64,000 nucleotides of DNA from an uncultured Bacteroidales bacterium (GTDB taxonomy: Bacteria; Bacteroidota; Bacteroidia; Bacteroidales; JAUNSR01), in contig CAMTOJ010000005.1 in assembly GCA_947074145.1 (NCBI GenBank), positions 62,001 through 126,000 on the forward strand, written 5' to 3'. Made by a program: the position numbers and the translations under genes. Shown one piece after another: positions 34,945 to 56,667 of the stretch. Every line of letters starts with the position of its first letter. Position 1 is the first letter of the stretch. The notes under the pieces were generated by a model, which saw only the letters and a program-made list of their open reading frames with translations, did not search any database and was not told the DNA's origin.

Positions 34945-34956
34945 ATAAATCGAATT

Positions 34957-35919: not shown

Positions 35920-35948
35920 AGTGTTTGTCAAGATTATCACCTCTTTTG

Positions 35949-35997
35949 CAAAGATAAAAGGATTGTTTTCATAAGATGGTGCAAAAGAGTATATTTG
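35949..35997. promoter_or_regulatory. Divergent promoter pair for the glycan-assembly genes
   Basis: CAAAGATA at 35949-35956 reads TATCTTTG on the minus strand, and TATATTTG lies at 35990-35997 on the + strand. Both fit TAnnTTTG and point away from each other toward the GT2 gene (minus) and the flippase gene (plus). Confidence 0.55.
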
Positions 35998-36026
35998 TTA
36001 TAAAATGATTATTTCAAAAGTTTGTC

Positions 36027-37538
36027 ATGGATGCCCAAAGTGCTGAAAATATAAAAAAAGATGAACCTCAAGAGGGGAAACAATATCGGGATATATTGAA
36101 ATATACCGGTATTTTCGGCGGAGTGCAAGGTTTAAATATGCTTGCGGGTCTTGTGCGAAACAAATTGACAGCAATTATTCTGGGTACTTCGGGCTATGGT
36201 TATATATCGATTTATAACTCTGCCATTTCACTGATCAATAATTCCACTAATCTCGGAATCTCTTTTTCTTCTATCAAAAATTTATCTCATATATATCATA
36301 ATGAAGGTGAATCAGCAGCCAAAGAGTATGTTTCAGTTATAAGATTCTGGAGTTTCCTTGCTTCATTTACCGGGATTATAGTGTGTTTCCTTCTTGCCGG
36401 ATATTTTAGTAATCTGACTTTCGAAAGTGATGAATTTACTAATGATTTCAGACTTTTATCTCTTGTTGTGGGATTGACAACGTTTTCCGCATGTGAACTT
36501 TCTATTTTAAAAGCGACAAGGCGAATCTCAGATGTTGCCAGAATATCATTAATGGGGGCAGTCGGATCTGTATTTATAGTTGTACCTATATATTATTTGC
36601 TGAATGAAAAGGGCATAGTGCCTGCTCTTTTGGCTCTTGCTACCTGGATAGCCTGTATTACCTCTTATTATACATTTAGTATATATCCGTTTGAAAAAGG
36701 TATTTTCTCAAAATTGAACTTTAAAAAGGGATTATCTCTTTTGAAACTCGGAATATCATTTATAATTGCGGGAATTTTTGGCTCTGGAGCTGAGTATCTT
36801 ATTAGAGCATATATCACGAAGACGGGAACAATTGATGATGTCGGTTTGTATAATGCCGGTTTTGCAATAAGTGTTACTTATATGGGTATGATATTTGTTG
36901 CAATGGAGAATGATTATTTTCCGAAACTATCATCTTTGAGCGAAAAAACAAAGGAAAGAAACGTGCTGATGAATAATCAGATAGAGATAGCTATATGGCT
37001 TATTTCTCCAATGATTGCAGGTTTATTGTTGTTCATGCCCATTATATTACCGCTTCTTTATAGTGGTAAATTTCTGCCCGCTCAAGATATGATATTATGG
37101 ACCTCTTTATTTATGTTTTTCAAAGCTCTCGTTCTTCCTGTTGCTTATCTGACACTAGCAAAGGGAGAATCTGTTGTTTATATGATACTTCAACTTATTT
37201 ACGATATCTTTTTTGTAGGTGTATCATTTATACTGTATAATTTATTTGGCTTAAAAGGTCTTGGAATGTCGATATCGTTGTCATGCTTTTTTGATATAAT
37301 ACTTAATTGGGGTTATTCATATTGGAAATACGGTTTTAAAGGTTCAAAGCGTACTCTAATTGCAAGCATTGTGATGTTTCCTATGATTTGTAGTATGATG
37401 TTAATATTAAACTATGGCAGAACTATTTACACATTGATCCCGGCCTCAATTTTAGCAATTATAATATCCGTGATCTCCTTTTATTTTCTTAATAAAAGAA
37501 CCGGACTTGTAGAAAAGTTTTTAAAGAGAAACTCCTGA
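36027..37538 (+). CDS. Wzx-type polysaccharide flippase (MOP superfamily)
   Basis: A 503-residue inner-membrane protein with about 14 predicted hydrophobic segments. After a charged cytosolic N terminus (about 1-28) comes ILKYTGIFGGVQGLNMLAGLVRNKLTAIILG, characteristic of O-antigen translocases. Loops with conserved Arg (LIRAYITKTG) and the paired six-plus-helix halves fit the MATE/MOP fold. It would flip lipid-linked oligosaccharide to the periplasmic face. It lies 6 bp upstream of a GT2 gene, and divergent GT genes lie behind it. No polymerase or ligase is in the window. Confidence 0.9.
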   Translation: MDAQSAENIKKDEPQEGKQYRDILKYTGIFGGVQGLNMLAGLVRNKLTAIILGTSGYGYISIYNSAISLINNSTNLGISFSSIKNLSHIYHNEGESAAKEYVSVIRFWSFLASFTGIIVCFLLAGYFSNLTFESDEFTNDFRLLSLVVGLTTFSACELSILKATRRISDVARISLMGAVGSVFIVVPIYYLLNEKGIVPALLALATWIACITSYYTFSIYPFEKGIFSKLNFKKGLSLLKLGISFIIAGIFGSGAEYLIRAYITKTGTIDDVGLYNAGFAISVTYMGMIFVAMENDYFPKLSSLSEKTKERNVLMNNQIEIAIWLISPMIAGLLLFMPIILPLLYSGKFLPAQDMILWTSLFMFFKALVLPVAYLTLAKGESVVYMILQLIYDIFFVGVSFILYNLFGLKGLGMSISLSCFFDIILNWGYSYWKYGFKGSKRTLIASIVMFPMICSMMLILNYGRTIYTLIPASILAIIISVISFYFLNKRTGLVEKFLKRNS

Positions 37539-37544
37539 TAATAT

Positions 37545-38549
37545 ATGGCTAAACAATATAAATGTAAAATAAGCATTCTGATTGCTTGTTATAATAGTAG
37601 TAGGTATATCAGACGGACACTCGATTCATTGTTGAATCAGAGTATGGCTGATATTGAGATTATTTGTATTGATGATGTATCGAGTGATGAAACATTGGAA
37701 ATAATTGAGGAATATGCAAAAAAAGATCAGAGGGTAATTATTGTAAGAAATGAGGTTAATAGCGGTCAGGCTGTTGCTCGAAATAACGGTTTGAAAATTG
37801 CTTCGGGTGAATATATCACAATGATTGATAGTGATGATTGGTTTGAATCGGATGCTTTGGAGATGATCTGTAAAGAGTTTGAAAAGTCGGAAGATACTGA
37901 TGCAGTTCTATATGATTTAGTTTATTATAATGATGATACAAATGAATGTTATCCTTATGAGATGCGTAATAAGAACAGAACATTAACCGGAAGAGATGCT
38001 GCATTTTCGAGTATTAGTTGGGATATTCATGGATATTACGCTATTAAAAATGAGATTCATAAAAAGTATCCCTTTGATGATTCCTCAAAGCTCTATAGTG
38101 ATGATAATACTACTCATATTCATTTTCTAAAAAGCCGTATAGTAAGAGTTTCAACCGGAAAATATTATTATAGACAACATAATCAGTCATCTACTCATAA
38201 AGTGTCGATGCTTGCATTTGAATGGATTAATGCAGCAGATTCTCTGAGACGCTCTCTTTTAGCTGAAAAAGCTGATCGCGAAATAATCGTGAAACAGGAA
38301 AATGAGAGATGGAAAATACTTATCGATAGAATTGTTTATTTTTTAAGATACAGTAATAGTTTTTCTTCTCAGGAGAAAGATAGTTTACTAAGTCTGTTCA
38401 GAGAAGCATTTAAGAGAAGTGATATCTCGGTGCTTTATCCCGAATATAAGTATAAACCAGGTTATTTTGCTTTTATAAGAAACTTTGATCTATTTATGGT
38501 GCAATTAAAAACGTACTATCTTTTAAAAAAGGTGACCGGCAGATTATAG
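37545..38549 (+). CDS. Glycosyltransferase family 2
   Basis: A 334-residue GT-A enzyme with ISILIACYNSSRYIRRTLDSLLNQ, IICIDDVSSDETLEII, GQAVARNNGLKIASGEYITMIDSDDW (metal-binding DSDD) and a C-terminal helical region ending in basic residues. The start is ATG 6 bp after the flippase stop, so translation is likely coupled. It would add a sugar to the lipid-linked intermediate handled by the flippase. Confidence 0.9.
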   Translation: MAKQYKCKISILIACYNSSRYIRRTLDSLLNQSMADIEIICIDDVSSDETLEIIEEYAKKDQRVIIVRNEVNSGQAVARNNGLKIASGEYITMIDSDDWFESDALEMICKEFEKSEDTDAVLYDLVYYNDDTNECYPYEMRNKNRTLTGRDAAFSSISWDIHGYYAIKNEIHKKYPFDDSSKLYSDDNTTHIHFLKSRIVRVSTGKYYYRQHNQSSTHKVSMLAFEWINAADSLRRSLLAEKADREIIVKQENERWKILIDRIVYFLRYSNSFSSQEKDSLLSLFREAFKRSDISVLYPEYKYKPGYFAFIRNFDLFMVQLKTYYLLKKVTGRL

Positions 38550-41211: not shown

Positions 41212-42105
41212 ATGAGCATAATCATAAAAGGGCTTAATAAGATATACCCTAATGGAAATCACGCACTCAAAGATGTAAATCTTGAAATTCCTCCGGGAAT
41301 GTTCGGATTGCTTGGACCTAACGGAGCTGGGAAATCTACTTTTATTAGAATTCTTGTCGCATTAATGGAACCATCTTCCGGTTCTATCAATATGTATGGT
41401 TATGATATCCTAAAGGAAAGAGAACAGGTCCGCAAGATAATGGGTTATCTGCCTCAGGATTTTCGTTTTTTCGCACCTTATAAAACATATGAATTTCTTG
41501 ATTATGCTGCGATGCTTTCAGGTATAAATTCACGTCGAGAAAGAAAGGAAAGAGTAGATGAAATGCTACGTTCAGTAGGTCTTTATGAAGTTCGCGATCG
41601 TTATGCCAATAAACTTTCAGGAGGGATGAAACGACGTTTGGGAATTGCCCAGGCATTAATACATAATCCAAAAGTTATTGTTGTAGATGAACCAACAACA
41701 GGTCTTGACCCGGAAGAGAGGATAAGATTCAGAAATCTTCTAACAAAGGCTGCCGGTAATAATGTTTCAATTATACTTTCAACACATATTGTGGGAGATA
41801 TTTCGAGCTCCTGTAATAATATGACTCTTCTTAATAAAGGTCAGATTTCTTTTGTGGGTGCCCCCGAGGAACTAATAAAAAAAGCTGAGGGAAAGGTTTG
41901 GAGAGCAATCGTACCTGATGAAATTTTTCAACAAATCAATGAAGAGTATCCTGTTATTACGACTATACCTGTAGCCAATGGATGGGAAATACAGGTTGTT
42001 TCGGAAACCCCACCTTGTGAAGGCGCCGAACTTTTTGCTCCAAATCTCGAACATGCTTATGTTTATTTCATAGACAGCAAATTTGACCTATGGAGAAAAG
42101 GTTAG
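41212..42105 (+). CDS. ABC transporter ATP-binding protein (export operon, first gene)
   Basis: A 297-residue cytosolic ATPase with Walker A GPNGAGKST (K41), Q-loop LPQDF, signature LSGGMKRR (S136), Walker B VIVVDEPTTG (D159, E160) and H-loop LSTHI. About 85 residues follow the ATPase core, with AIVPDEIFQQI and VVSETPPCEGAELFAPNLEHAYVY. The core and this tail closely match the ATPase domain at the end of the 1529-residue RND fusion in the same operon, so the two are paralogues. It would power the permease encoded 49 bp downstream. Confidence 0.95.
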   Translation: MSIIIKGLNKIYPNGNHALKDVNLEIPPGMFGLLGPNGAGKSTFIRILVALMEPSSGSINMYGYDILKEREQVRKIMGYLPQDFRFFAPYKTYEFLDYAAMLSGINSRRERKERVDEMLRSVGLYEVRDRYANKLSGGMKRRLGIAQALIHNPKVIVVDEPTTGLDPEERIRFRNLLTKAAGNNVSIILSTHIVGDISSSCNNMTLLNKGQISFVGAPEELIKKAEGKVWRAIVPDEIFQQINEEYPVITTIPVANGWEIQVVSETPPCEGAELFAPNLEHAYVYFIDSKFDLWRKG

Positions 42106-42154: not shown

Positions 42155-45100
42155 ATGATTTCATTTCACAATATATCTGCTGTTGCCAAATATGAAAGTC
42201 GACTTCTGGGAAGGGGATGGTTTTTCAAAATATTTACGCTTTTATCTATTTTACCTTTAGGTATTACAAGCTTGAGCTTTTTAAATTCCTTCCGTCCGTG
42301 GATTCTTGTGGCTATACCGGCAAATATACCTTATTTCAATATGTTGCTGATTAATGTAGGACAAGCAATAATCGCGATTTTCTTGGCTTCTGAATTTATA
42401 AAAAGGGACACAAAACTCGATACTTCAGAAGTTTTCTTTGTAAAACCGATGAGTAATACTGAGTATGTAATAGGTAAGACATGGGGTAGTTTGCGGATGT
42501 TTATTTCTTTAAATTTCGCGGCTCTTTTAATCGCATTTATATTTAATTCTTTAATTGATTATGTTTGGATAGATTGGGGAGCTTATCTGTTTTATTTTAT
42601 GGCTATTAGTATTCCTACTTTGGTCTTTGTAATAGGGTTGTCGTACTTTTTGATGATTTTGCTAAAGAATCAAGCAGTAGTTTTTGCCCTACTTCTTGCA
42701 TATATAGCTATTACCTTGTTCTATATAGGAGATTCTGTTTATTATCTTTTTGACTATATGGGATTTAATCTTCCATTGATGAAGTCAGATATTGTTGGTC
42801 ATGTAAATCTTATACCTATTATTCTGCATAGGTCTATATATTTATTTCTTGGAATAGCATTTATTGCAATGACAATATATAAATTGCCCCGACTTGCCAA
42901 TAATAAGAACAATACAAAATATGTGTTGATTACAGCAATCTTGTTTTTCTTGGGAGCCGGAGTTTTGGTGCTTCATCATATTTCAAGTTTTTATATGAAG
43001 AGTAATGCAAGAGAAAATTTCCTTGCAATAAATAATAAATACTCAGGGTATGCAAAAATAGCACCCGATTCATGTTTTATAAATCTTAATCAAATGCCTC
43101 GTTCCATCGAAGCAGAGATGGTATTTAATGGAAAGACACTTGAAGGAGCAAAAGAATATGTCTTTTCTCTCAATCCGGGATTAACAGTTAATTCAGTTAC
43201 AAGCAAATCTCACAAAATATCTTTTATAAGAGATAATCAGGTTATTCTTGTAGCATTTGATAAGGAACTGAAAAGGGGAGAAAATGTAGATCTAAAGTTT
43301 AATTATAAAGGGAATATTGATCAGAACTATTGTTATTTGGATGTTAGTGATAAGGATCTTGCAAAGACTAATAGTGTTATGCTTTTTAATATTGAAAAAA
43401 GTTATGCATTTATTACACCTAAATATCTTCTGCTTACACCCGAAACAGCATGGTATCCAAAACAAGGAGTATCATATAGTCCGGAAAATCCTACATGGTC
43501 ACAATCTCATTTTACAAAATATCGCCTTGAAGTGACAGCTCTTGATTCGCTGGTTGCTGTTTCTCAGGGAAAGGATACGATAATAGATGGTAAATATATC
43601 TTTGAGCCTGATAGACAACTAATGAATATATCATTAGCCATAGGTGATTATGAGAAGTTTACTATGAAAATAGATACTATCGATTATTCAATGTGGATGA
43701 TAAAGAATCATGATTATTTTACTCAGACACTCGATTCATTAAAGGATACGTTATCGGTAGTTATTCCGGATATTAAAGGGAATATTGAAAGGAGTAGAAA
43801 TTTGACTTATCCGTTCAATCGTTTTGGATTAGTTGAAGTTCCTGCCAATTTTGAAACATATCCTCGTCTTTGGACCAAAGCACAGGAGTCTGTTCAACCG
43901 GAACTTGTTTTCGTTTGTGAAAGAGCATATGATATTGGGCGTGCCGATATCCATGAAAACCTGAGATGGATGAGAGAATACAACAAAAACGGATGGCTGG
44001 GACGTGACCATACAGATTTTGAATTGCAACTTAATGTGTTAAGGAATTTGATCTATTATTTTAATGATGATAATGGTGAATATAAATGGAGTATGAAAGC
44101 GGGTGGTTCGGGAACTCTTGAAGTTATTCCCAATAAATATAAGATATATCCGCAACTATTCAATTTTAGAGTAAATCTCTTTTCTTCCGAATTGGCTTTT
44201 GCTAATAGGCTATTGGAGCAATATGTAGATCCTGATAAAAGTTCGAGATGGATGAGAAATATCAATGGGATTACAGTGGAAGAGAAAGCAAATCTTTTAT
44301 TTAAAGAATCAAGCTTCAGAGATTTAATGTATTCTGATAATAAAGAACTGACAAATGCGATTGTAACTTTAAAATCAGCTGAACTTTTTATGCCGGGAGA
44401 GTTAAAGATTGGCAGAGATGAATTTAGGGATTCAGTATTTTCATATATAAATCGCAATAGTTTTCAAAATATTGATTTTGAGAGAATGATGCTTCACTTT
44501 GAAGATATCACAGATTGGGATTTTAAAGAAGATTATTCGATGTGGCTTGACTCAGTATATTGTCCGGGGTATGAAATATCTGAACCTATAGTTTCCTATT
44601 TTAATAATGGAGATGAAGATGTGTATGAAACTGTTTTCAAGATTCACAATGTTTCGGATATATTTGGGATGCTAAGAATTGAGGTTCGAGAACAGCAGAA
44701 TCAGACAACTAATGATTATTTCTATGTGGATGCGGGCAACATGGTAGAACGTGTTATAATAACAAATACACAACCTGTTTCATTTGAAATAACCACTAAT
44801 ATATCGACAAATATTCCCTCTACTTTATCCTTCAGAGCCGGAAATGTAACAACCGTTGTAGATCGGGAACCAAAGGTAGCTGATACTTATAATGTAAATA
44901 ATCTGGAAACAAAAGGTGTGATCATTGTGGATAATGAAGATCCGGGATTCTCAATTTCAGAGAGTGAGCCTATAGGATTGCTTGCTACATGGATTCTTAA
45001 GGAGGATGATGGCACAGGTCTTGATTTTGTGGGATATAATATATGGCGTCCACCTTTGAAGTGGTCTAAAACTACAGCTCCGAGATATTATGGACGAAAT

Positions 45101-45436
45101 GTGAGGTCAGTACATTTTTTGAAGAGCGGAAAGGGAAATGCCTGGGCTCAATGGAATATACCAATAGAGGAAGAGGGACAATATGATCTTTACTATTGGG
45201 TAGCCGGTTATGACGAGGTGAGATGGATGAGGTGGAAGCAGGCCAAATATCAATTTTTTGTAAATGCATTTGGAGAGGAGCCTGATGAATATACTTTGAA
45301 TCTTCGTCGAAATGATCAGGGGTGGGCTCTACTGGGAACTTTTTATGCCGGAAAGGGAGATTTTACAGTTAAACTTACCAATAATACCAAGCTAAATGCA
45401 GTCGAAGCAGATGCGGTAAAACTTGTGAAAAGATAA
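42155..45436 (+). CDS. ABC-2-type permease fused to an M1-peptidase-like ectodomain and a golvesin-like domain
   Basis: A 1093-residue protein. Residues 1-280 are an ABC-2 permease with about seven hydrophobic helices. The next ~600 residues resemble the N-terminal beta-saddle of M1 aminopeptidases (AEMVFNGKTLEGAKEYVFSL, LLTPETAWYPKQ, NISLAIGDYEKFTMK) and the family's YPFNRFGLVEVPANFETYPRLW region (from about 551). However, no HExxH zinc motif appears, so peptidase activity is unlikely. The last ~115 residues (about 978-1092; AWAQWNIPIEEEGQYDLYYWVAGY) look like a golvesin/Xly-type beta-sandwich. It is likely the membrane partner of the ATPase at 41212, with a large periplasmic binding part. 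Confidence 0.85.
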   Translation: MISFHNISAVAKYESRLLGRGWFFKIFTLLSILPLGITSLSFLNSFRPWILVAIPANIPYFNMLLINVGQAIIAIFLASEFIKRDTKLDTSEVFFVKPMSNTEYVIGKTWGSLRMFISLNFAALLIAFIFNSLIDYVWIDWGAYLFYFMAISIPTLVFVIGLSYFLMILLKNQAVVFALLLAYIAITLFYIGDSVYYLFDYMGFNLPLMKSDIVGHVNLIPIILHRSIYLFLGIAFIAMTIYKLPRLANNKNNTKYVLITAILFFLGAGVLVLHHISSFYMKSNARENFLAINNKYSGYAKIAPDSCFINLNQMPRSIEAEMVFNGKTLEGAKEYVFSLNPGLTVNSVTSKSHKISFIRDNQVILVAFDKELKRGENVDLKFNYKGNIDQNYCYLDVSDKDLAKTNSVMLFNIEKSYAFITPKYLLLTPETAWYPKQGVSYSPENPTWSQSHFTKYRLEVTALDSLVAVSQGKDTIIDGKYIFEPDRQLMNISLAIGDYEKFTMKIDTIDYSMWMIKNHDYFTQTLDSLKDTLSVVIPDIKGNIERSRNLTYPFNRFGLVEVPANFETYPRLWTKAQESVQPELVFVCERAYDIGRADIHENLRWMREYNKNGWLGRDHTDFELQLNVLRNLIYYFNDDNGEYKWSMKAGGSGTLEVIPNKYKIYPQLFNFRVNLFSSELAFANRLLEQYVDPDKSSRWMRNINGITVEEKANLLFKESSFRDLMYSDNKELTNAIVTLKSAELFMPGELKIGRDEFRDSVFSYINRNSFQNIDFERMMLHFEDITDWDFKEDYSMWLDSVYCPGYEISEPIVSYFNNGDEDVYETVFKIHNVSDIFGMLRIEVREQQNQTTNDYFYVDAGNMVERVIITNTQPVSFEITTNISTNIPSTLSFRAGNVTTVVDREPKVADTYNVNNLETKGVIIVDNEDPGFSISESEPIGLLATWILKEDDGTGLDFVGYNIWRPPLKWSKTTAPRYYGRNVRSVHFLKSGKGNAWAQWNIPIEEEGQYDLYYWVAGYDEVRWMRWKQAKYQFFVNAFGEEPDEYTLNLRRNDQGWALLGTFYAGKGDFTVKLTNNTKLNAVEADAVKLVKR

Positions 45437-45538: not shown

Positions 45539-47014
45539 ATGAGGAAATTGTGCTTATGGGCTTTGCTTTTGTCAAGTTCGTTTTCTGCTAAAAGTCAGAT
45601 TGCATTGACAATGGAAAGAGCTCTTGAAATAGCAAGCGTTAACAGTCCTGACATTCAGACTTCATTAATGAATCTTGAAAGATCGAAACTTAATCTATTA
45701 GCTCAGCGGGCATCTCTTAAATCAAAGTTCTCTCTTGATTTTAATCCTGTAACCTATTCAAAAAACAGAAGTTTTGATAATCGTCTTTCTCAATGGTATA
45801 CCAATGAATCTTTTTCATCAATGGGAACATTCAGAGTCGTACAGCCAATTCTCTGGACAGATGGTAGTATATCTTTGGTGAACTCTTTTGGTTGGCAAGA
45901 TAATAAGTCGCAATTAACCAGTTCGAGTTCAAATGAGAATAAGTCTTTTCAGAATAATCTTTATCTGAGTCTTTCTCAACCTCTTTTTACATATAATCGC
46001 ACAAAGATGGCTCTGAATGAGCTTGAACTCGATTATGAAAATTCAATGATAGCATATGCTCTACAGCAGCTTAGTATGGAACGTAATATAACTTCGTCGT
46101 TCTATACTGTATATACTGCACAAAGTAATTTGCAGATTAGTGAAGACGCATTGGAGAGCGCAAAGAAGAGTTATGAAATAATAAAGAATAAGGTTGATGC
46201 GGATTTGGCAGCAAAAGATGAGCTTTTTCAGGCAGAATTAAATCTTTCGACGGCAATGTCGAGCGTAGAAGATGCTATTGTGACTGTCGAAAATTCAAAA
46301 GATCAACTAAAACAGAGATTAGGTATGCCTCTTGATGAGGATTTTTCTGTAGTTACCGAAGTTAATGTGGAAAAGGTTTATATAAATCTTGAACATGCAG
46401 TAGAAAGTGCAATGCATTCAAGACTTGAATTAAGACAGCGCCAAATTACTACTAAACAACTTGAGTTTCAGATGATACAAACTAAAGCTCTTAACGAGTT
46501 TAAAGGAGATGTCTCTCTTTCTATTGGTATAATGGGGGATAATGAAGCGTTTGGTAAGATCTATGAACATCCTACACAGAATCCGAGAGTCGCAGTAAGT
46601 TTTTCAGTTCCTATATTTGATTGGGGTGAGAGAAAAGCAAAAATTAAATCACAGGAGACTGCAATGAAAATAAATGTTTTGCAAGGTCAGGAAGAGGAAA
46701 AAACTATTGAAATGGATGTTCGACAGACCTATAGAAGTCTTGAAAATGATTACAGACAAATTGAGATAGCTCGTCAGAATGTGAAAAATGCACAGCTTAC
46801 TTATGATCTGAATCTCGAAAGATATAGAAACGGTGATTTATCGGGAATGGAAATGAGTCAATTTGAAAATCAGCTTTCTTCTAAGAAGATGTCGCTCGTA
46901 CAGGCAATGATTAATTATAAGATTGACCTGTTGAATCTGAGAATTCTTACATTATATGATTTTTCGGCTAACAAATCTATAATGCCGGAGATAAATAAGC
47001 TTTTACAAAAGTAA
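45539..47014 (+). CDS. TolC-family outer-membrane efflux channel
   Basis: A 491-residue protein with a signal peptide ending near SAKSQ. Two OEP repeats are seen (about 25-240 and 265-470), each with long amphipathic helices (MERALEIASVNSPDIQ; LDEDFSVVTEVNVEKVY linking; QTYRSLENDYRQIEIARQNV) and the NLERYRNGDLSGMEMSQFENQL motif. The protein forms the trimeric outer-membrane and periplasmic tunnel of tripartite pumps. It is followed 44 bp later by the membrane-fusion protein gene. Confidence 0.95.
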   Translation: MRKLCLWALLLSSSFSAKSQIALTMERALEIASVNSPDIQTSLMNLERSKLNLLAQRASLKSKFSLDFNPVTYSKNRSFDNRLSQWYTNESFSSMGTFRVVQPILWTDGSISLVNSFGWQDNKSQLTSSSSNENKSFQNNLYLSLSQPLFTYNRTKMALNELELDYENSMIAYALQQLSMERNITSSFYTVYTAQSNLQISEDALESAKKSYEIIKNKVDADLAAKDELFQAELNLSTAMSSVEDAIVTVENSKDQLKQRLGMPLDEDFSVVTEVNVEKVYINLEHAVESAMHSRLELRQRQITTKQLEFQMIQTKALNEFKGDVSLSIGIMGDNEAFGKIYEHPTQNPRVAVSFSVPIFDWGERKAKIKSQETAMKINVLQGQEEEKTIEMDVRQTYRSLENDYRQIEIARQNVKNAQLTYDLNLERYRNGDLSGMEMSQFENQLSSKKMSLVQAMINYKIDLLNLRILTLYDFSANKSIMPEINKLLQK

Positions 47015-47058: not shown

Positions 47059-48120
47059 ATGAAATACATAAATATATTCCCTGCATTAGGCGTCTTGGCA
47101 CTTCTTTCTTTAAACAGTTGTAAAAACAATAACAATAATGCAAATGCCGATATCGCATCTCCTGTTTCTGTGCTTGAATTAAAACCTGGACCCATAAAAA
47201 AATATATCAATACCTCAGGTACTGCAGTTGCAAGCAAAGATGCAGAAGTGAAATCACTGATGTCAGGTAAATATTTTTTACAAAAAAATCCCACTACCGG
47301 TCAGGCATATAAACTTGGAGATAAAGTTTCAACAGGAGAGGTTATTGTAAAACTTGAAGACCAGGAATATTTGAATGATATTTCATTGGAAATAAAAAAT
47401 AAAAACCTTGAAATTGTAAAACAGGAGTTTCAAAAACAAAAGGCTCTTTATGAAAAAGGGGGAGCTACTTTGACGGAGGTAAAGAATTCGGAACTGAAGG
47501 TGGCAAGCTCTGAGCTTGAGGTTGAAAATGCTCGTTTCAAACTTGATTATATGAAGGTAACGGCTCCTTTTTCCGGTATAATTGTTGATCTTCCTCATTA
47601 TACTTCAAATGTCAAACTTGAGACAGGCAAATCTATAGTATCCATAATGGATTATTCTACTTTGTATATGGATATTAACTTACCGGAAAATGCAATAACA
47701 AGTGTTACTCCCGGCCAGAAAGTAGCCATAACACATTATACTTTAAAAAATGATACTCTTCAGGGGGTGATAAAAGAGTTGTCGCCTGCAATCAGTTCAG
47801 AAACAAGAACATTTAAAGGAAAACTTGAGATCGATAATAAGAAGATGAAATTAAGACCGGGAATGTTTGTTAAGGCAGATATTATCGTTGAAAGTAATGA
47901 TAGTGCGATTGTTGTGAATAAATCTATTCTTCAGAGTAGAGGACGTAATAAATTTCTATATACTCTTGATAAGAATGTTGCCAAATATACTGAGGTTCAA
48001 ACCGGAATCGAAGATAAATATTACATAGAGATTACAGATGGACTAAAAAAGGGTGATATCATTATCTCAAAAGGATATGAAACTTTGAGAAATAATAGTA
48101 AGGTGAAGGTCGAACGATAA
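47059..48120 (+). CDS. RND-type periplasmic adaptor (membrane-fusion lipoprotein)
   Basis: A 353-residue lipoprotein with lipobox LNSC followed by an Asn-rich stretch. Order: beta-barrel start (ISPVSVLELKPG), lipoyl half-motifs (GDKVSTGEVIVKLEDQEY and LDYMKVTAPFSGIIVDLPHY), a helical hairpin between (about 115-165), a beta-barrel (about 200-280) and a membrane-proximal domain. It would bridge the TolC channel and the RND permeases encoded on either side. It starts 44 bp after the channel gene and ends 58 bp before the RND gene. Confidence 0.94.
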   Translation: MKYINIFPALGVLALLSLNSCKNNNNNANADIASPVSVLELKPGPIKKYINTSGTAVASKDAEVKSLMSGKYFLQKNPTTGQAYKLGDKVSTGEVIVKLEDQEYLNDISLEIKNKNLEIVKQEFQKQKALYEKGGATLTEVKNSELKVASSELEVENARFKLDYMKVTAPFSGIIVDLPHYTSNVKLETGKSIVSIMDYSTLYMDINLPENAITSVTPGQKVAITHYTLKNDTLQGVIKELSPAISSETRTFKGKLEIDNKKMKLRPGMFVKADIIVESNDSAIVVNKSILQSRGRNKFLYTLDKNVAKYTEVQTGIEDKYYIEITDGLKKGDIIISKGYETLRNNSKVKVER

Positions 48121-48178: not shown

Positions 48179-51100
48179 ATGAGAAAACTAATAGAATTTG
48201 CAGTTAAAAACAAAGTGACAATTTTAATGCTTGTATGCGGGATATTGTTGCTTGGAAAGATATCATACGACGAACTGGGTATAGACCTACTTCCCAATAT
48301 GAACAACCCTCGTCTCTATGTTGAGATAAAAGTTGGGGAACGACCACCTGAAGAGATTGAGAAAAACTTTGTTTCCAATATGGAATCGATGATAATTCGA
48401 CAGAGTGATGTCACAGGTGTATCGTCAGTCATTAAAGCCGGATCTGCAAAGGTTACGGTTGATTATGTATGGAAAAAAGATATGGATGAAGCTTATCTGG
48501 ATCTACAGAAGGCTCTCGGTTCTTTTTCTACTAACACTAATATTGATGAATTCACGATTTCTCAAAATAATCCGAATTCAGATCCAGTTATGCTGATCGC
48601 ACTTTCTCATAATAATATCGACGATATGTCTCAATTGAGAAAGGTTTCAGAGTCATATATCAGAAATAATCTTGTCAGAATAGACGGAGTTGCAGATGTA
48701 TCACTTACTGGAGATGAACAGAAGAATCTTATCGTAACAACCGATTCTTACAAGCTAAAAGCATTTAATCTAACAGTTGCCGAAATTGTATCGAAAATAC
48801 AGGAGAAGAATACTTCTGTTTCCGGTGGTAGTATTGTTGATAACGGACGTCAATATATTATAAAAGGAGTTGGTAATATGTCGACAGAAAAAGATTTTGA
48901 AAATCTTATTGTAGGCTATAAAGCGATAGACTCGGTTGCTACTTCCACATCGACCTTAATTTCACAAATTAAAGCACCTATTTATCTGGGAGAAATTGCA
49001 GAGGTAGAATTTATTAATAATGATCCCTCATGTATTGTTAGAATTGACGGACAACGTTGTATCGGTCTTTCCGTGTTTAAAGAGGTACGTTTTAATACAG
49101 TAAAGGTTGTTGAGAATGTTGAAAAAGAACTAAATAGGTTATCAAAGGCTCTTCCGGGTTATGAATTCAACATAGTCAGCAATCAAGGAACGTTTATTAA
49201 TCAATCAATATCTGAAGTTAAATCTTCACTTATAATTGGTATTATACTTGCCGTATTTGTCCTTTTTACCTTCCTACGCAGAATAGGAACTACAATGATT
49301 GTAAGTATTGCTATTCCGATCTCTATTGTTGCGACATTTAATCTGATGTTTTTCGGAGGATTAACTCTAAATATCATGACATTGGGGGGGATGGCTTTAG
49401 GAGCCGGAATGCTTGTCGATAATGCTATTGTCGTTATAGAATCTATTTTCAGAAATCAACGACCCGGAGTCTCGGTCGAGGAAGCTGCTATTCAGGGAAC
49501 TTATGATGTGGCAACAGCAGTTACAGCCTCAACAATGACAACAATTGTTGTTTTCCTTCCAATCGTTTATATGCATGGAGCATCAGGAGAATTGTTTAAA
49601 GAGATGGCTTGGACTGTGACCTTCGCACTTATTTCTTCATTGTTTGTAGCTATTCTTGTAATACCTATGCTTTACTGTAAGCTTGCAGGGAAAATAAAAC
49701 CGCATATTTCAGGAAACGAAAAAATAGAAGGAAAATCAATTAGTTTCGATTGGTATGTAAATATTCTTCGCAATATTCTAAGACGTAAGAAAGCTGTGCT
49801 TTCAGGAGCAATATCTTTTCTTATCATTACTCTTTTTCTTTCATTTTTCCTTGAAAGTGAATTTATGCCGCGACCGGACGGCAACAGTTTTGAGATAAAT
49901 CTAAAACTTGAGGAGGGTACAACAATCACCTCCACAGGTATGACGGTTGGCAATATAGAAAATATATTATATGAAATTGTTGGTGATTCTTTATGTACAG
50001 TTTATACTCATATCGGTGATAATAATCTCGCTAACTCTATTTTTGACGGAGAGAATAGTGCAAAAATTAAAGTATTATTAAAAGATGGAGCTCCTTCGGC
50101 TGAATATATTATTAATCATATCAATACATACCTTACCGGAATACAAGGTATGGAGGTGGTATTCTCTCAAGAAGATAACTCTTTGACATCACTTTTCGGA
50201 AATGAAAGTTCACCTATTGTTGTGGAAATAAAAGGTGAGGATATGGATGTATTGACATCTCTTACTGAAGATGTAAAGTCAAGAATAGAACGTATTCCTT
50301 CACTTATGAATATCATGAGTTCTATTGAGGATGGTGCTCCCGAAGTAAATATAAATATTGATCGTGTTTTTTGTGGTATTAACAATATCACTATCAGTAA
50401 TATCGTCAGTCAGATATCGCAGAGTCTCGATGGCGCAACAGCAGGACAAATGGAATATGAAGGTGAAATGAGAGATATTCTAATCAAAACACCGAAGGTC
50501 AATTTGTCTGAATTGGAAAATGCTCAAATTGTTTCATCAAATAAGACATATCGTTTGTCCGATCTTGCAACATTCGATATTTCAAGAGCTCCGCGTGAAA
50601 TAATAAGAAAAAATCAGATTCGAGTAGGAAAGATTACTTCCGATTTTACAAAGGGAAGTTCTCTTGAAGCAGAAGCAAAGAGTGTAGCCGAGGTAATGGC
50701 AGAGGTGCAATTCCCTTCAGGATACTCTTATTCCATATCAGGAGAAGAGGAGATGAGAAAAGAATCGATGGGAGGCCTTATGTTTGCACTTGTCTTATCT
50801 GTAATACTTGTTTATATGGTATTGGCATCGCAGTTTGAATCATTACTCCATCCTTTTACAATATTATTGACAATACCTTTAGCTGTATCAGGTGCTATCC
50901 TTATGTTTATTGCAACAGCAACGACTGTCAATATAATGGGTGTTATTGGTATTGTGATGCTTGTTGGTATTGCGGTTAATAACTCCATTATTCTTGTTGA
51001 CCGAATAAATCAATTAAAAGAGAATATGACTCTTGAGGATGCTATCGTAGAGGCTGGTCGTCAACGTATAAGACCAATATTAATGACTACTCTTACCACT

Positions 51101-51289
51101 ATTCTTGCTCTTCTGCCGATGGCTATCGGTTTTGGGGAGGGAGCGGAATTAAGAGCTCCTATGGCTATAGCGGTAATAGGTGGATTGTTGACATCAACTT
51201 TTATGAGTCTTGTTGTAATCCCTTCATTATATTATGTTTTTGAATCTTTGAAGGTTAAATTCAGTACAAAAAAACTTTCGCAGTCTTGA
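48179..51289 (+). CDS. RND efflux permease (AcrB/HAE1-type)
   Basis: A 1036-residue inner-membrane proton antiporter of standard length, with 12 predicted helices and two large periplasmic loops. In TM4, AGMLVDNAIVVIESI has D414 followed by N; in TM10, GIAVNNSIILVD has N934/N935 in place of the AcrB-type Lys. This D-N / N-N pattern is seen in many non-AcrB HAE1 and MdtBC-like pumps. The start MRKLIEFAVKNKVTI and the end SLYYVFESLKVKF are typical. It lies 67 bp upstream of a second, fused RND gene. Confidence 0.95.
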   Translation: MRKLIEFAVKNKVTILMLVCGILLLGKISYDELGIDLLPNMNNPRLYVEIKVGERPPEEIEKNFVSNMESMIIRQSDVTGVSSVIKAGSAKVTVDYVWKKDMDEAYLDLQKALGSFSTNTNIDEFTISQNNPNSDPVMLIALSHNNIDDMSQLRKVSESYIRNNLVRIDGVADVSLTGDEQKNLIVTTDSYKLKAFNLTVAEIVSKIQEKNTSVSGGSIVDNGRQYIIKGVGNMSTEKDFENLIVGYKAIDSVATSTSTLISQIKAPIYLGEIAEVEFINNDPSCIVRIDGQRCIGLSVFKEVRFNTVKVVENVEKELNRLSKALPGYEFNIVSNQGTFINQSISEVKSSLIIGIILAVFVLFTFLRRIGTTMIVSIAIPISIVATFNLMFFGGLTLNIMTLGGMALGAGMLVDNAIVVIESIFRNQRPGVSVEEAAIQGTYDVATAVTASTMTTIVVFLPIVYMHGASGELFKEMAWTVTFALISSLFVAILVIPMLYCKLAGKIKPHISGNEKIEGKSISFDWYVNILRNILRRKKAVLSGAISFLIITLFLSFFLESEFMPRPDGNSFEINLKLEEGTTITSTGMTVGNIENILYEIVGDSLCTVYTHIGDNNLANSIFDGENSAKIKVLLKDGAPSAEYIINHINTYLTGIQGMEVVFSQEDNSLTSLFGNESSPIVVEIKGEDMDVLTSLTEDVKSRIERIPSLMNIMSSIEDGAPEVNINIDRVFCGINNITISNIVSQISQSLDGATAGQMEYEGEMRDILIKTPKVNLSELENAQIVSSNKTYRLSDLATFDISRAPREIIRKNQIRVGKITSDFTKGSSLEAEAKSVAEVMAEVQFPSGYSYSISGEEEMRKESMGGLMFALVLSVILVYMVLASQFESLLHPFTILLTIPLAVSGAILMFIATATTVNIMGVIGIVMLVGIAVNNSIILVDRINQLKENMTLEDAIVEAGRQRIRPILMTTLTTILALLPMAIGFGEGAELRAPMAIAVIGGLLTSTFMSLVVIPSLYYVFESLKVKFSTKKLSQS

Positions 51290-51356
51290 TCTGAAATATG
51301 TTTCAATATTCGTCCTCTCTTTATGGCGATGATGAAATATTAATAATTTGTTATCT

Positions 51357-54300
51357 ATGAAGTTTCTTATAAATCGACGTATTACAATCTCTATGATATT
51401 CCTGGCAATTACATTGCTGGGGTTAATATCTTATCGACAACTTTCGATGGAATTGCTCCCTAACGCCGAATACCCGACAATCTCGATAAACGTTAATTCA
51501 AGAACAGATCTTAACCCTTCCTATATTGAATCGGAAGTGGTGATGGGGCTGGAAGGTGCCATAAAAACAATCGAAGGTATAGAGTCTCTTAATACAAGTA
51601 TACGTTCTAATGCAGCTTCTATAAATGTAAACTTCAAACCAAGTGTAAATTTGAAGTATGCAACGATTAAGGTTCAGGAGAAGATAAAAGAGATTAGCAA
51701 AACATTGCCTGACGGATTTACCATCAATGTTAATAAAGGGGGAAATGCCGGTGTTCAGAATAGTTTTATGACCCTTCAGGTAAGGGGAACCGGAGGTGTT
51801 GACCGTGTTAGATCTTTAACAGATGAGAAAATCACCGAACATCTTGAGAATATTGATGGGGTAGCAGCTGTCAATGTATTTGGAGGACGAGAGAAAAGTA
51901 TAGAAATATTGCTTGATAAACAAGCTGCTCTGGCTCATAATATCACCTCTTCTACAATTAGTCAGCTCATAAATCAAAATACTCAGGAAAGAACATTCTT
52001 GGGAGAGGTAAACTCTTTCAATCGTAAATATTATGTCCATTCAGAGGCTGCTTATTCAAGCCCGATAGATCTCGAAAATCTGGTTATAGGGGCAGGACCA
52101 ACATATCTTAAAGATGTTGCTGAGATATTTTATGATCTAAAAGAGGAAACTTCGTACAATCGTGTAAACGGTATGGAAGCGATATCGGTATCTCTTAATA
52201 ATGAAGCTCAGGTAAATATTATTGATGTAGCCGAAAGAACAAGAAAGGTGATTGAAAAACTCAATGAAGAGCTTGCTCCGTATGAAATTGAGATAGCAGT
52301 TGCTTCGGATAATGCAAAAGTGATGGCAGACAACCTTAATCAAATAGGTTGGCAGGCTTTAATCGGGGGTATTCTTGCTGTTATAATATTGTGGGTTTTC
52401 CTTCGGAATATTCGTCTTGTATTGATCATTGCACTATCAATACCAATATCGGTAGTTACAGCATTTAATCTTTTCTATGCATCAGGAATCACAATAAACA
52501 GTCTTACTCTTGTAGGAATGGCACTTGCCATAGGGATGCTACTTGACAATAGTGTTGTAGTGCTTGAGAATATTTATCGTATGATTGCTACCGGAGTAAA
52601 ACCGGAAACAGCAGTTCCAAAAGCTACAGGTGAAGTGTGGCGATCCATACTTGCAGCTACATTAACTACAATCACAGTATTTCTACCTTTTATATTTTCT
52701 GATAACTTTCTTATCAAGTTAGTTGGTTATCAAATCGGAGTGTCAATAATATCTACATTAGGAATATCTCTTCTTGTTGCCTTTTTCTTTATTCCAATGG
52801 CGGCATATATGATTATCAAAGCACAGAAGAAAGAGGAAGGTTTCTATAAAAAGATATCTATTCGTCAACGCCCCGTTCAAATATATATGGTGCTTCTTAA
52901 GATGACAATGAGAAATACTTTTACTGTATTTGTGTGTGCGGTGGTTGTTCTTTTTGCGGTTATAATACTTGCAATGGGTAATCAAGAGAAGGGTCAGAAA
53001 AGCGCTAAATCTGATCGATTCACTATCAACATGAATATGCATAATGGATCGACTCTTGAAAAAGCAGACGGATATGTAAGAATTCTTGAGGACAGACTTA
53101 AAGATATCCCCGAATTAAAAGAGCTCATTTGTTATGTAACGGCTGAGAATGCTAATCTGACTTTTGTTCTAAAAGATGATTATGAGAAGATCGGAAAACG
53201 AGATATGGCCACCATTCGCGATGAGGTAAACAGACTCTCATGGATAAATAACGGACAATATTGGTATTATATTTCAGATGCAATCGGAGGAGGAAACGGA
53301 CAGAATGATGTAGTCAGTGGTCTTTCTCGGATGCTTAATATGCTCGGTATTGGTTATCGTGGAGAGTCAATCATTATTACAGGAAAAGACCAGGATTTAA
53401 TGCGCCTTGTAGGAGAAGAGCTTAATTATCAGATAAATCAACAAGACAATATAGCTTATTGTCAATTAGGTGGAACAGGGCGAAGACCGGAACTGCATCT
53501 TTATTTCAATCAAATACTTATGAATAGTTATGATATAAGTAAGAATAGCATTTCACAGAGTCTTTCTGCTTTTAATTCAGGAACATCATCCGGTTCGAAA
53601 CTTAAGATTGATGATAAAGAGTATGATATCGTAATAAAAGAAAAAATTGAATCGATAGATAGTATCTCTGAACAAGAACTTCGGACCAAAGACATGGCTG
53701 ATTTGAAGAACCTGACTATTAAGAACAATAAAGGTGGCATTCATACCATTTCAGAGATAGCAACGACAAAACTTACATCAGGTCCCTCTTGGATCAACAG
53801 AGTAAACGGAGAAAAACGACAATATATGTGGTTCGGATTTAATTTCGGACAAAAAGATGTTCCACAAGATCTTATCAATGCGAGTCGTGAAGAGATTCAG
53901 GATCTTATAGATTCATATCCTTTACCTCCCGGTATTGCCGTTGAACTTGTTGAACAAGAGGATAGCTTTGCAGATTTTCGTTTCCTTATGCTTGCTGCAG
54001 CAGCATTAATATTTATGATTCTTGCTTCTGTTTTCGAATCTCTATCAACTCCATTTGTATTACTTTTTACTATCCCTTTAGCAGCAATAGGATCATTGTT
54101 CGCTCTTTATGTAGCCGATTATTCATTGTCTAATATAAATACACTTATCGGGTTGTTGATACTTCTTGGGGTGGTGGTCAATAATGGAATTATTCTTATT
54201 GACTATACCAATATATTGCGAAAACGAGGATTTGGAAGAGTAAGAGCACTAATAAGCGCCGGTCTTTCACGTGTGCGTCCTATACTTATAACATCGCTGA

Positions 54301-55946
54301 CAACAATTATAGCACTTTTGCCTATGGCTTTCGGAGAGTCGGAGTATTCAGGACTTATTGGAGCGCCATTCGCAATATGTGTAATAGGTGGGTTGGCTTG
54401 TTCCTCTTTATTGACATTGATAATAATCCCTTCTGTATATCTTGGACTTGAGAATACCATTGATTGGTATAAAGCCTTACCTAAGAAGATAATGATTATT
54501 CATCTTTTAGTATTAATAAGTGCCATATATCTGATAGACACTCTTGTTGAGGGATTATTATATCAGATAATATATTTCGTAATAATATTTATTGCAATAC
54601 CGGGATTCATATATCTTTCTCGTACAACTTTACGCTCAGCGGATAAACAAATCATTCCTGCAAATAAGCCAATCAAGATTACAATAGAAAATCTTGTAAA
54701 AATATATGATAGACCATCACTTATAGAACGTGAATGGGAGGGTGGAATAAAATTGCGTCGCAAGTTAGTTCCCGATTCAATATGGCATAATAAATATGTT
54801 GAAATGATACCTTATGTGGCTGTCCCTCTAATCTTGATCTGGAAGGATGACTGGACAGGTGGTTCATGGTTTTTGTACTTCCTATTATCAGCTCTTGTTT
54901 TTGCAATAAGGAGAATTTCGGCTTATGTATATGATAATAATATAGAAGTTAGAAATATAGAGGGTAAATGGAGTAGGTTTAAACGAAGTATATTCGGATT
55001 TGCTATATCCGTTCCTTTTATTGGAAAACGTCACCGTCCTTATAAAGCATTGAAAGGAGTATCGTTTGAGATCACAAACGGTATGTTTGGTCTACTTGGT
55101 CCTAACGGAGCAGGTAAATCGACATTTATACGTATTATATCAGGAATTCTCGAACAAAGTTACGGTACAATATGGATTAATGATCTCAATACTAAAGATC
55201 ATAGAGAAGCGATACAAGGACTTATTGGTTATCTGCCTCAGGAGTTCGGAACGTATGAAACAATGAGTGCTTACGATTTTCTTGATTATCAGGCAATACT
55301 TAAAGGGATAACAGATTCGGATGTAAGAAAAGAACGACTTGAATATGTTTTGACGGCTGTACACATGTGGGAAAGAAAAGATGATAAGATTAACTCCTTC
55401 TCCGGAGGTATGAAACAACGTATCGGTATCGCTCTCATCCTTCTTCATTTGCCACGAATACTTGTTGTAGATGAACCTACAGCAGGACTTGACCCAAGAG
55501 AGCGTATACGCTTCCGTAATCTACTTGTTGAACTTAGTAAAGAAAGAATTGTAATATTCTCTACCCATATCATTGAGGATATTTCAAGTTCATGTAATCA
55601 GGTCGTAGTGATCAATAAAGGAGAATTGCGTTATTACGGTACTCCAAATGAGATGCTTGGTTTTGCCGATTCGCTTGTCTGGAGCTTTAGCGTAACCCCT
55701 CAGGAATTTGAAGAAAAACTCGAGATGCAATATGTTGTTCTTCATCTTCAGGATGGTAAAAATATTCAGGTAAGATATATCTCGGAAACATGTCCGTGGC
55801 CGGGAGCTGTGAGAGTAGAAGAAACTCTTGAAGATGCTTATTTGTGTCTTTTGAAAAATATGAAGAAGAAAGATTATGAAGAGAGCGTTAATATCATTTC
55901 GACTCTTAACATGAACACTATTACTGTAAAAAAGGATAAATTATAA
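51357..55946 (+). CDS. RND efflux permease fused to an ABC ATPase domain
   Basis: A 1529-residue protein from the ATG at 51357 (MKFLINRRITISM); an in-frame TTG 9 bp upstream is less likely. Residues 1 to about 1035 are a full RND pump (TM4 MLLDNSVVVLEN with D397; TM10 VVVNNGIILID with N942/N943). Two extra hydrophobic helices follow (about 1045-1090). An ABC ATPase begins with strand KITIENLVKIYD (1107-1118), is interrupted by a ~110-residue insert holding two more hydrophobic segments (about 1150-1163 and 1170-1186), and resumes at YKALKGV (1229). It carries Walker A K1254, signature S1349, Walker B D1372/E1373 and H1404. All ATPase motifs look intact and the frame is continuous. Confidence 0.95.
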   Translation: MKFLINRRITISMIFLAITLLGLISYRQLSMELLPNAEYPTISINVNSRTDLNPSYIESEVVMGLEGAIKTIEGIESLNTSIRSNAASINVNFKPSVNLKYATIKVQEKIKEISKTLPDGFTINVNKGGNAGVQNSFMTLQVRGTGGVDRVRSLTDEKITEHLENIDGVAAVNVFGGREKSIEILLDKQAALAHNITSSTISQLINQNTQERTFLGEVNSFNRKYYVHSEAAYSSPIDLENLVIGAGPTYLKDVAEIFYDLKEETSYNRVNGMEAISVSLNNEAQVNIIDVAERTRKVIEKLNEELAPYEIEIAVASDNAKVMADNLNQIGWQALIGGILAVIILWVFLRNIRLVLIIALSIPISVVTAFNLFYASGITINSLTLVGMALAIGMLLDNSVVVLENIYRMIATGVKPETAVPKATGEVWRSILAATLTTITVFLPFIFSDNFLIKLVGYQIGVSIISTLGISLLVAFFFIPMAAYMIIKAQKKEEGFYKKISIRQRPVQIYMVLLKMTMRNTFTVFVCAVVVLFAVIILAMGNQEKGQKSAKSDRFTINMNMHNGSTLEKADGYVRILEDRLKDIPELKELICYVTAENANLTFVLKDDYEKIGKRDMATIRDEVNRLSWINNGQYWYYISDAIGGGNGQNDVVSGLSRMLNMLGIGYRGESIIITGKDQDLMRLVGEELNYQINQQDNIAYCQLGGTGRRPELHLYFNQILMNSYDISKNSISQSLSAFNSGTSSGSKLKIDDKEYDIVIKEKIESIDSISEQELRTKDMADLKNLTIKNNKGGIHTISEIATTKLTSGPSWINRVNGEKRQYMWFGFNFGQKDVPQDLINASREEIQDLIDSYPLPPGIAVELVEQEDSFADFRFLMLAAAALIFMILASVFESLSTPFVLLFTIPLAAIGSLFALYVADYSLSNINTLIGLLILLGVVVNNGIILIDYTNILRKRGFGRVRALISAGLSRVRPILITSLTTIIALLPMAFGESEYSGLIGAPFAICVIGGLACSSLLTLIIIPSVYLGLENTIDWYKALPKKIMIIHLLVLISAIYLIDTLVEGLLYQIIYFVIIFIAIPGFIYLSRTTLRSADKQIIPANKPIKITIENLVKIYDRPSLIEREWEGGIKLRRKLVPDSIWHNKYVEMIPYVAVPLILIWKDDWTGGSWFLYFLLSALVFAIRRISAYVYDNNIEVRNIEGKWSRFKRSIFGFAISVPFIGKRHRPYKALKGVSFEITNGMFGLLGPNGAGKSTFIRIISGILEQSYGTIWINDLNTKDHREAIQGLIGYLPQEFGTYETMSAYDFLDYQAILKGITDSDVRKERLEYVLTAVHMWERKDDKINSFSGGMKQRIGIALILLHLPRILVVDEPTAGLDPRERIRFRNLLVELSKERIVIFSTHIIEDISSSCNQVVVINKGELRYYGTPNEMLGFADSLVWSFSVTPQEFEEKLEMQYVVLHLQDGKNIQVRYISETCPWPGAVRVEETLEDAYLCLLKNMKKKDYEESVNIISTLNMNTITVKKDKL

Positions 55947-55947
55947 T

Positions 55948-56667
55948 ATGGAACTATCACATTTAATACCAACGATAAGAGATATTGTCAAATACAATCT
56001 TAAGATTGTATTCTCCGGAAAATTTATTTGGTTCCTGATGGCTTCTTCATTGTTGTACATTTTCTTTATTAGTTGGGGTGTATATTCAGGAGAACCCGTG
56101 ACCGAGCAGCTTATCTATTCCTCTATGCTCTATCCTGCAATTCTTATCATTTTTTATCCTTGTACCTTCGGTATTCAGAATGATTATGATAATCGTATTT
56201 TGGAGATACTTTTCGGAATTCCCAATTATCGTTATAAGATATGGCTCTTGCGAATAATTATGATATATGTCGCTACCTATTTTATGATGGTAATTCTTGC
56301 TACGCTTTCATACATACTTGTATATGCCAATAATCCTTTTGAAATGGCGGCGAGAATTATGATACCGGTGATATTCTTTGGAAACCTGGCATTCTTTATT
56401 TCAACCCTAACCCGCAGTGGTAGTGGTACGGCTATTATAATGATTATTTTCGGTATCGTCATTTATTTTATGTTAAGCATATTTGATTTGTCTAACAAAA
56501 GTGCGTGGGATATATTTCTTAACCCCTATAAGATGCCTGAAAACTTCAATCCGGTAATGTGGAGTATTATGGTTGTTAAGAATATGGTTTATATGTCTTT
56601 TGCGATAATCGTAACAATGATGCTCGGACTTCTTAACCTACAGAAAAGAGAATCATTCATGAAATAA
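55948..56667 (+). CDS. ABC-2-type permease (export operon, last gene)
   Basis: A 239-residue inner-membrane protein with six predicted hydrophobic helices. The cytosolic N-terminal helix (LIPTIRDIVKYNLKIVFSGKF), FGIQNDYDNRILEILFGIPNYRYKIWLLR and a final VTMMLGLLNLQKRE are typical of ABC-2 export permeases. The ATG follows the RND-ABC fusion stop by 1 bp, so translation is almost certainly coupled and the permease is the probable partner of the fused ATPase. It is followed by a strong terminator. Confidence 0.9.
   Translation: MELSHLIPTIRDIVKYNLKIVFSGKFIWFLMASSLLYIFFISWGVYSGEPVTEQLIYSSMLYPAILIIFYPCTFGIQNDYDNRILEILFGIPNYRYKIWLLRIIMIYVATYFMMVILATLSYILVYANNPFEMAARIMIPVIFFGNLAFFISTLTRSGSGTAIIMIIFGIVIYFMLSIFDLSNKSAWDIFLNPYKMPENFNPVMWSIMVVKNMVYMSFAIIVTMMLGLLNLQKRESFMK

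Follow-up and report, generated by a model that had tools for sequence, protein, structure and literature searches.

An ABC-2-type permease with a zinc-less M1-like ectodomain in a conserved operon with RND and TolC pump genes

The operon and its permease gene

The window analysed here, a 64,000-nucleotide stretch of a contig from an uncultured Bacteroidales bacterium, contains an operon of seven genes that lie on one strand with intergenic gaps of 1-102 bases. The subject of this study, a permease gene, is second in an order that runs from an ABC ATPase (ATPase 1) through the permease, a TolC-type protein, an adaptor and two RND permeases, the second of which is fused to an ABC ATPase, to a small permease.

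41212..42105, + strand: ABC ATPase 1, first gene of the operon (Pfam ABC_tran, E 1.6e-31)
42155..45436, + strand: subject gene, an ABC-2-type permease with a zinc-less M1-like ectodomain and a Golvesin_C domain
45539..47014, + strand: TolC-type outer-membrane factor (OEP, E 3.5e-42)
47059..48120, + strand: RND periplasmic adaptor, or membrane fusion protein (TIGR01730, 182 bits, over the cut-off)
48179..51289, + strand: RND permease 1 (ACR_tran, E 7e-210)
51348..55946, + strand: RND permease 2 with two extra transmembrane helices and a second intact ABC ATPase (ACR_tran 4-1032, ABC_tran 1235-1379)
55948..56667, + strand: small ABC-2-type permease (hhalign to the first permease module of active fusions)

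The motifs of ATPase 1 are intact (Walker A GPNGAGKS, signature SGG, Walker B VVDEPT, and STH), and the tripartite set of RND permease, adaptor and TolC is completely represented, as judged by Pfam and TIGR01730. These pump genes, which an earlier note on this DNA did not mention, are the more informative part of the locus. The presence of two different RND permeases together with an adaptor and an outer-membrane factor in one operon is shared with MdtABC-type RND pumps; unlike those systems, this operon has a second RND permease that bears an ABC ATPase, and it also encodes ABC-2 exporter parts. The extra transmembrane helices of RND permease 2 are found at residues 1048-1088, after the RND part, and its ATPase has an apparent insert of about 115 residues between the first strand (ITIENLVKIYD) and YKALKGVSFEI. 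Further upstream in the window, glycosyltransferase and flippase genes recognized by eye (33817-38549), likely the end of a polysaccharide cluster, precede genes for an alkaline phosphatase (38709) and an EamA transporter (40119). Downstream of the operon, a secreted leucine-rich (BspA-like) repeat protein was recognized by eye at 58231-59286.

The subject gene is a single intact open reading frame of 1093 amino acids, in which Pfam reports a Golvesin_C domain, a sub-threshold ABC2_membrane_2 match and nothing else. Its domain layout was derived mainly from an AlphaFold model that was built from 63 aligned family members (pLDDT 87.6, pTM 0.85).

42164..43042, + strand: membrane domain, residues ~4-296 (AlphaFold model; hhalign to active fusions)
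43025..44845, + strand: M1-like ectodomain comprising M1 domains I, II and III, residues 291-897 (VIA; Foldseek)
45059..45427, + strand: Golvesin_C domain, residues 969-1091 (PF25275; profile match to 6f2p)

In the model, seven long helices follow a single N-terminal helix and take the membrane domain to residue 296; the final one (251-296) exits the membrane as a stalk to the large ectodomain. Given these seven membrane helices and a start on the cytoplasmic side, the ectodomain is expected to be periplasmic. The C-terminal golvesin-like beta-sandwich described in the earlier note was recovered both by Pfam (PF25275, residues 969-1091, E 3.3e-13, 50.3 bits against a curated cut-off of 31.6) and by a profile match to a Paenibacillus xanthan lyase (6f2p, E 1.4e-8). 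These C-terminal 120 residues belong to the same family as the C-terminal domain of the lyase, where the domain is carried by a secreted enzyme rather than by a transporter. In the subject protein it stands where M1 domain IV would be.

An M1 fold that has lost its catalytic site

Some 600 residues following the membrane domain had been noted to follow the layout of M1 aminopeptidases, and structural comparison bears this out. A search of the PDB with the model returned M1 aminopeptidases as all of the top 50 matches, spanning residues 291-897 (Foldseek E 3.7e-19 to IRAP). VIA gave a Z score of 20.5 to ERAP1 and IRAP, the match to ERAP1 (3qnf_A) covering residues 293-897 (440 residues, rmsd 5.0); scores of about 20 lie far above the stated background, and M1 domains I, II and III are all covered. 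The ectodomain has the M1 fold, which is defined by an N-terminal beta-saddle, a thermolysin-like domain and a beta-sandwich. When residues 285-640 were folded separately (pLDDT 92.5), the fragment matched LTA4H with Z 20.7 and rmsd 2.8. A viral fold library yielded one M1-like giant-virus protein and otherwise nothing useful.

In the single sequence, the M1 domain is invisible to Pfam, to NCBIfam and to phmmer against the PDB, and is revealed only by profiles and structure. In the PDB, the family profile detected M1 enzymes by way of domain II, in its helical half (tricorn F3, 1.1e-4; ERAP1, 5.5e-4). Among proteins encoded in genomes it detected genuine HExxH enzymes, by way of either that helical half or domain I (L015, E 8e-11; L193, L196, L201 and L205). 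A profile of residues 285-640 alone gave zero PDB matches by sequence. These profile matches are evidence independent of the model, in which the ectodomain is M1-like in fold. Two of the matched enzymes, L201 and L205, are HExxH M1-type proteins of about 1130 amino acids with a hydrolase-like C-terminal part and, by eye, are possible M1-M28 fusions.

The HExxH motif is missing from the subject protein, as had been observed earlier, and it is found at the active-site position in 0 of 94 homologous loci, some of which hold the same gene twice, nor does it occur in two further members from other classes. A single homologue, represented by the overlapping loci L005, L010 and L033, has the sequence HETKH near residue 885, outside the catalytic domain; in L005, whose gene is that of L033, this lies at the edge between the beta-sandwich and the linker and looks incidental. 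Three positions in the subject gene bear on the catalytic site.

43919..43921, + strand: codon of Glu589, invariant in 63/63 family members (profile alignment to active fusions)
44015..44131, + strand: residues 621-659, modelled as a shortened equivalent of the HExxH helix and then a beta-hairpin of low conservation, with no His (fragment model, VIA end-points, column make-up)
44366..44368, + strand: codon of Thr738, which aligns with Tyr351 of tricorn F3, the catalytic Tyr in M1 enzymes (profile alignment)

In the VIA alignments of the fragment, residue 638 pairs with LTA4H 295, D. radiodurans M1 322, ERAP1 353 and yeast LTA4H 340, which are the first zinc histidines of these enzymes. Other rows place residue 640 opposite the second zinc histidine (ERAP1 357, ERAP2 374, IRAP 468), so that the register is uncertain by about 2 residues. 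Since residues 638 and 640 pair with zinc-histidine positions, helix 621-637 in the model would correspond to the start of the HExxH helix, ending where the motif should begin; the fragment was cut at residue 640, and this placement is accordingly set by the alignment end-points only. The segment expected to hold the zinc motif is gappy and weakly conserved in the family alignment. The seven commonest residues at column 738 of the family are Lys, Ser, Gly, Gln, Asn, Glu and Ala, with no Tyr. The loss of the catalytic half-domain, which the earlier note had wanted checked, did not take place: domain II is still present and the loss is local, at the HExxH helix.

Several ectodomain residues are invariant in the family alignment (E430, W433, Y434, E561, P563, Q581 and E589). 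Of these, Glu589 aligns with the substrate-binding Glu of the GxMEN motif in active ABC-permease/M1 fusions, an assignment made by profile alignment only. The subject protein thus shares with M1 aminopeptidases such as ERAP1, IRAP, LTA4H and tricorn F3 domains I-III, including the helical half of domain II, and a probable GxMEN-type Glu; it differs from them in having neither HExxH nor the catalytic Tyr, in carrying Golvesin_C in place of domain IV, and in being tethered to an ABC permease. We regard the ectodomain as a probable pseudopeptidase that has kept the M1 fold and the probable GxMEN-type Glu and lost HExxH and the catalytic Tyr; our confidence, which is evenly balanced, applies to the whole of the explanation developed below.

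Residual peptidase activity, through another metal site or another mechanism, could be sought in the conserved acidic residues E561, E589 and E688, the last of which is 95% conserved and lies in helix 683-691, a candidate helix for the third zinc ligand (Glu). We consider such activity extremely improbable. Only one ectodomain His column, H519 (84%), is conserved to at least 80%, and it pairs with a His of the active fusions; the column expected to carry the catalytic Tyr is made up of other residues, and the motif region has gaps and little conservation. We set aside a replacement metal site since the family alignment of the ectodomain has no conserved clusters of His or Cys. The two outcomes that would have told against the earlier description, a structure with no M1-like fold and an alternative metal site, are thus not what was found, the fold being present and a His-based replacement site absent.

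Active fusions and conservation of the operon

The zinc-less permease was compared with 31 active ABC-permease/M1 fusion loci of Bacteroidota (L135-L164 and L126), all 31 of which keep HExxH...E. Comparison with such fusions had been suggested in the earlier note, and it establishes homology: hhalign of the subject family against the active fusions gave E 6.3e-25 for the full protein (reversed control 0.04) and E 8e-10 for the ectodomain (reversed control 0.33). The two kinds of protein share an ABC-2 permease joined to an M1 ectodomain, and a similar ATPase gene (41%) adjoins the two active fusions examined. Active fusions carry two permease modules in one chain of about 1200 amino acids, whereas in the operon these modules are split over two genes. 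The membrane domain of the subject protein matches the second module, the whole protein corresponding to module 2 plus M1, and the small permease (55948) matches the first (hhalign E 1.8e-6, probability 90). Because the two modules and the M1 part match the small permease and the subject protein in this way, the operon contains the parts of an ABC/M1 fusion exporter, divided between two genes, together with a second ATPase and a peptidase that has been silenced. One form has not simply replaced the other, since two genomes (G261 and G378) hold both an active fusion and a zinc-less permease. The window's own genome (95% complete) contains no Pfam Peptidase_M1 match, and most sampled genomes of the phylum have several.

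Conservation of the operon was scored in 80 loci from named genomes, which include Bacteroides, Parabacteroides, Prolixibacteraceae, Saprospiraceae, KSB1 and Krumholzibacteriota. The ATPase 1 gene lies upstream of the permease gene in 71 of 76 scored loci and, by eye, in 3 more, where the script had been misled by overlapping open reading frames. TolC (75/77 loci), the adaptor (72/74) and RND 1 (66/68) are likewise present in the operon, and the RND 2-ATPase fusion was found in 50 of 59 loci, the remaining 9 being open reading frames cut by the end of the locus. The small permease gene follows the fusion gene in 6/6 other operons that were read to the end. Of 395 genomes in the class, five have the full-length permease, and exactly these five have the RND-ABC fusion (linker). 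Among the scored loci, true exceptions are limited to two solitary zinc-less M1 permease paralogues (L053:9947-13423 and L072:1619-5014), whose genomes also hold operon copies (L059 and L020). A further locus, L030:3078-7246, has the ATPase and the permease followed by a gene on the opposite strand instead of TolC; it is a short contig and was left unscored for TolC. By eye, the opposite-strand gene is NusG-like. A plasmid search found the subject gene on no plasmid.

These neighbourhoods bear on two alternative readings. The operon might simply hold two separate transporters of related compounds, one an ABC-2 exporter and the other an RND pump, as is suggested by the two active fusions whose neighbourhoods were read, which differ from the operon in having one ATPase gene and no RND or TolC genes beside them. 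This arrangement is nonetheless decidedly improbable, given that an ATPase is covalently fused to the RND permease in 50/50 uncut RND 2 open reading frames and that the module-1 permease is placed behind the pump genes. Alternatively, an inactive peptide-binding fold attached to an ABC permease could act as a sensor. Much as in BceAB-type flux sensors, the ectodomain would then detect peptides or envelope damage and control either the transporter or a partner in signalling. We think this unlikely, for gene clustering across the loci revealed no regulator or histidine kinase recurring widely upstream of the operon, and the partners that do recur are pump parts. The same result, together with the invariant Glu589 and the near-obligate linkage to the pump, makes a handover role fit better than a sensor role. 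The description in the earlier note of an ABC permease with an M1-like ectodomain lacking the zinc site stands as observed; the peptide or lipoprotein sensing or handover that it envisaged is a putative role.

A predicted exporter coupled to an RND/TolC pump

We propose, with confidence no better than even, that the operon encodes an RND/TolC pump and, coupled to it, a heteromeric ABC-2 exporter whose inactive M1 domain receives substrate in the periplasm or hands it over. The subject permease and the small permease would form the two halves of the split exporter, which would take its power from ATPase 1 and from the ATPase that is fused to RND 2, and the RND 2-ABC fusion would physically couple this exporter to the RND/adaptor/TolC pump. 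Because the M1 fold and the probable GxMEN-type Glu are kept and HExxH and Tyr are lost, the pseudopeptidase is expected to bind its ligand without cutting it. The predicted substrate is a peptide, a lipopeptide or another molecule that has a free amine end. While the ABC part is extruding or extracting this substrate, the pseudopeptidase would take it up and pass it to the RND/TolC conduit and out of the cell; the golvesin module may contribute glycan or partner binding. More tentatively, ATP hydrolysis and the RND proton cycle would be covalently joined in one tripartite complex, a hybrid machine in which a retired aminopeptidase loads the RND conduit.

A shared operon is no proof of one machine, and the machine is offered as a prediction. 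The two ATPases could be homodimers serving separate units, and the permease might function without the pump, since L030 has no TolC gene behind the permease and L053 and L072 are solitary. The proposed cooperation of an ATP-driven unit with an adaptor and TolC resembles MacAB-TolC; in the operon, by contrast, the ABC-2 unit is accompanied by RND permeases. MacB belongs to the type VII ABC proteins and has a fold of its own, and its periplasmic domain has been described as transmitting ATP-driven movement.

A comparable role is the main rival to a handover module: the M1 and golvesin domains would form a rigid periplasmic platform that docks the adaptor, RND and TolC proteins or relays ATP-driven movement, a purely structural or gating function in which substrate is not bound. 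Such a platform would be consistent with the near-obligate linkage to pump genes, with the RND-ABC fusion and with the seating of the large ectodomain on the transmembrane stalk helix 251-296. We judge it rather doubtful, since the invariant residues E430, W433, Y434, E561, Q581 and E589 exceed the needs of a spacer, although they may themselves be structural.

The domain families involved are already known, and it is their combination that appears new: full-text searches of open papers, which leave out most subscription journals, found no description of a split ABC-2 exporter that bears a zinc-less M1 domain and is accompanied by an RND-ABC fusion, and no paper dealing with the operon or with ABC/M1 fusions. 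The permease would provide a clear natural example of an exporter that has taken on a peptidase as a non-catalytic component, and the phylum still has active fusions with which to compare it. A single machine that would use two energy sources and cross two membranes is suggested by the RND-ABC fusion and by the division of the ABC-2 modules between two genes, and the presence of family members in gut Bacteroides and Parabacteroides makes genetic tests practical.
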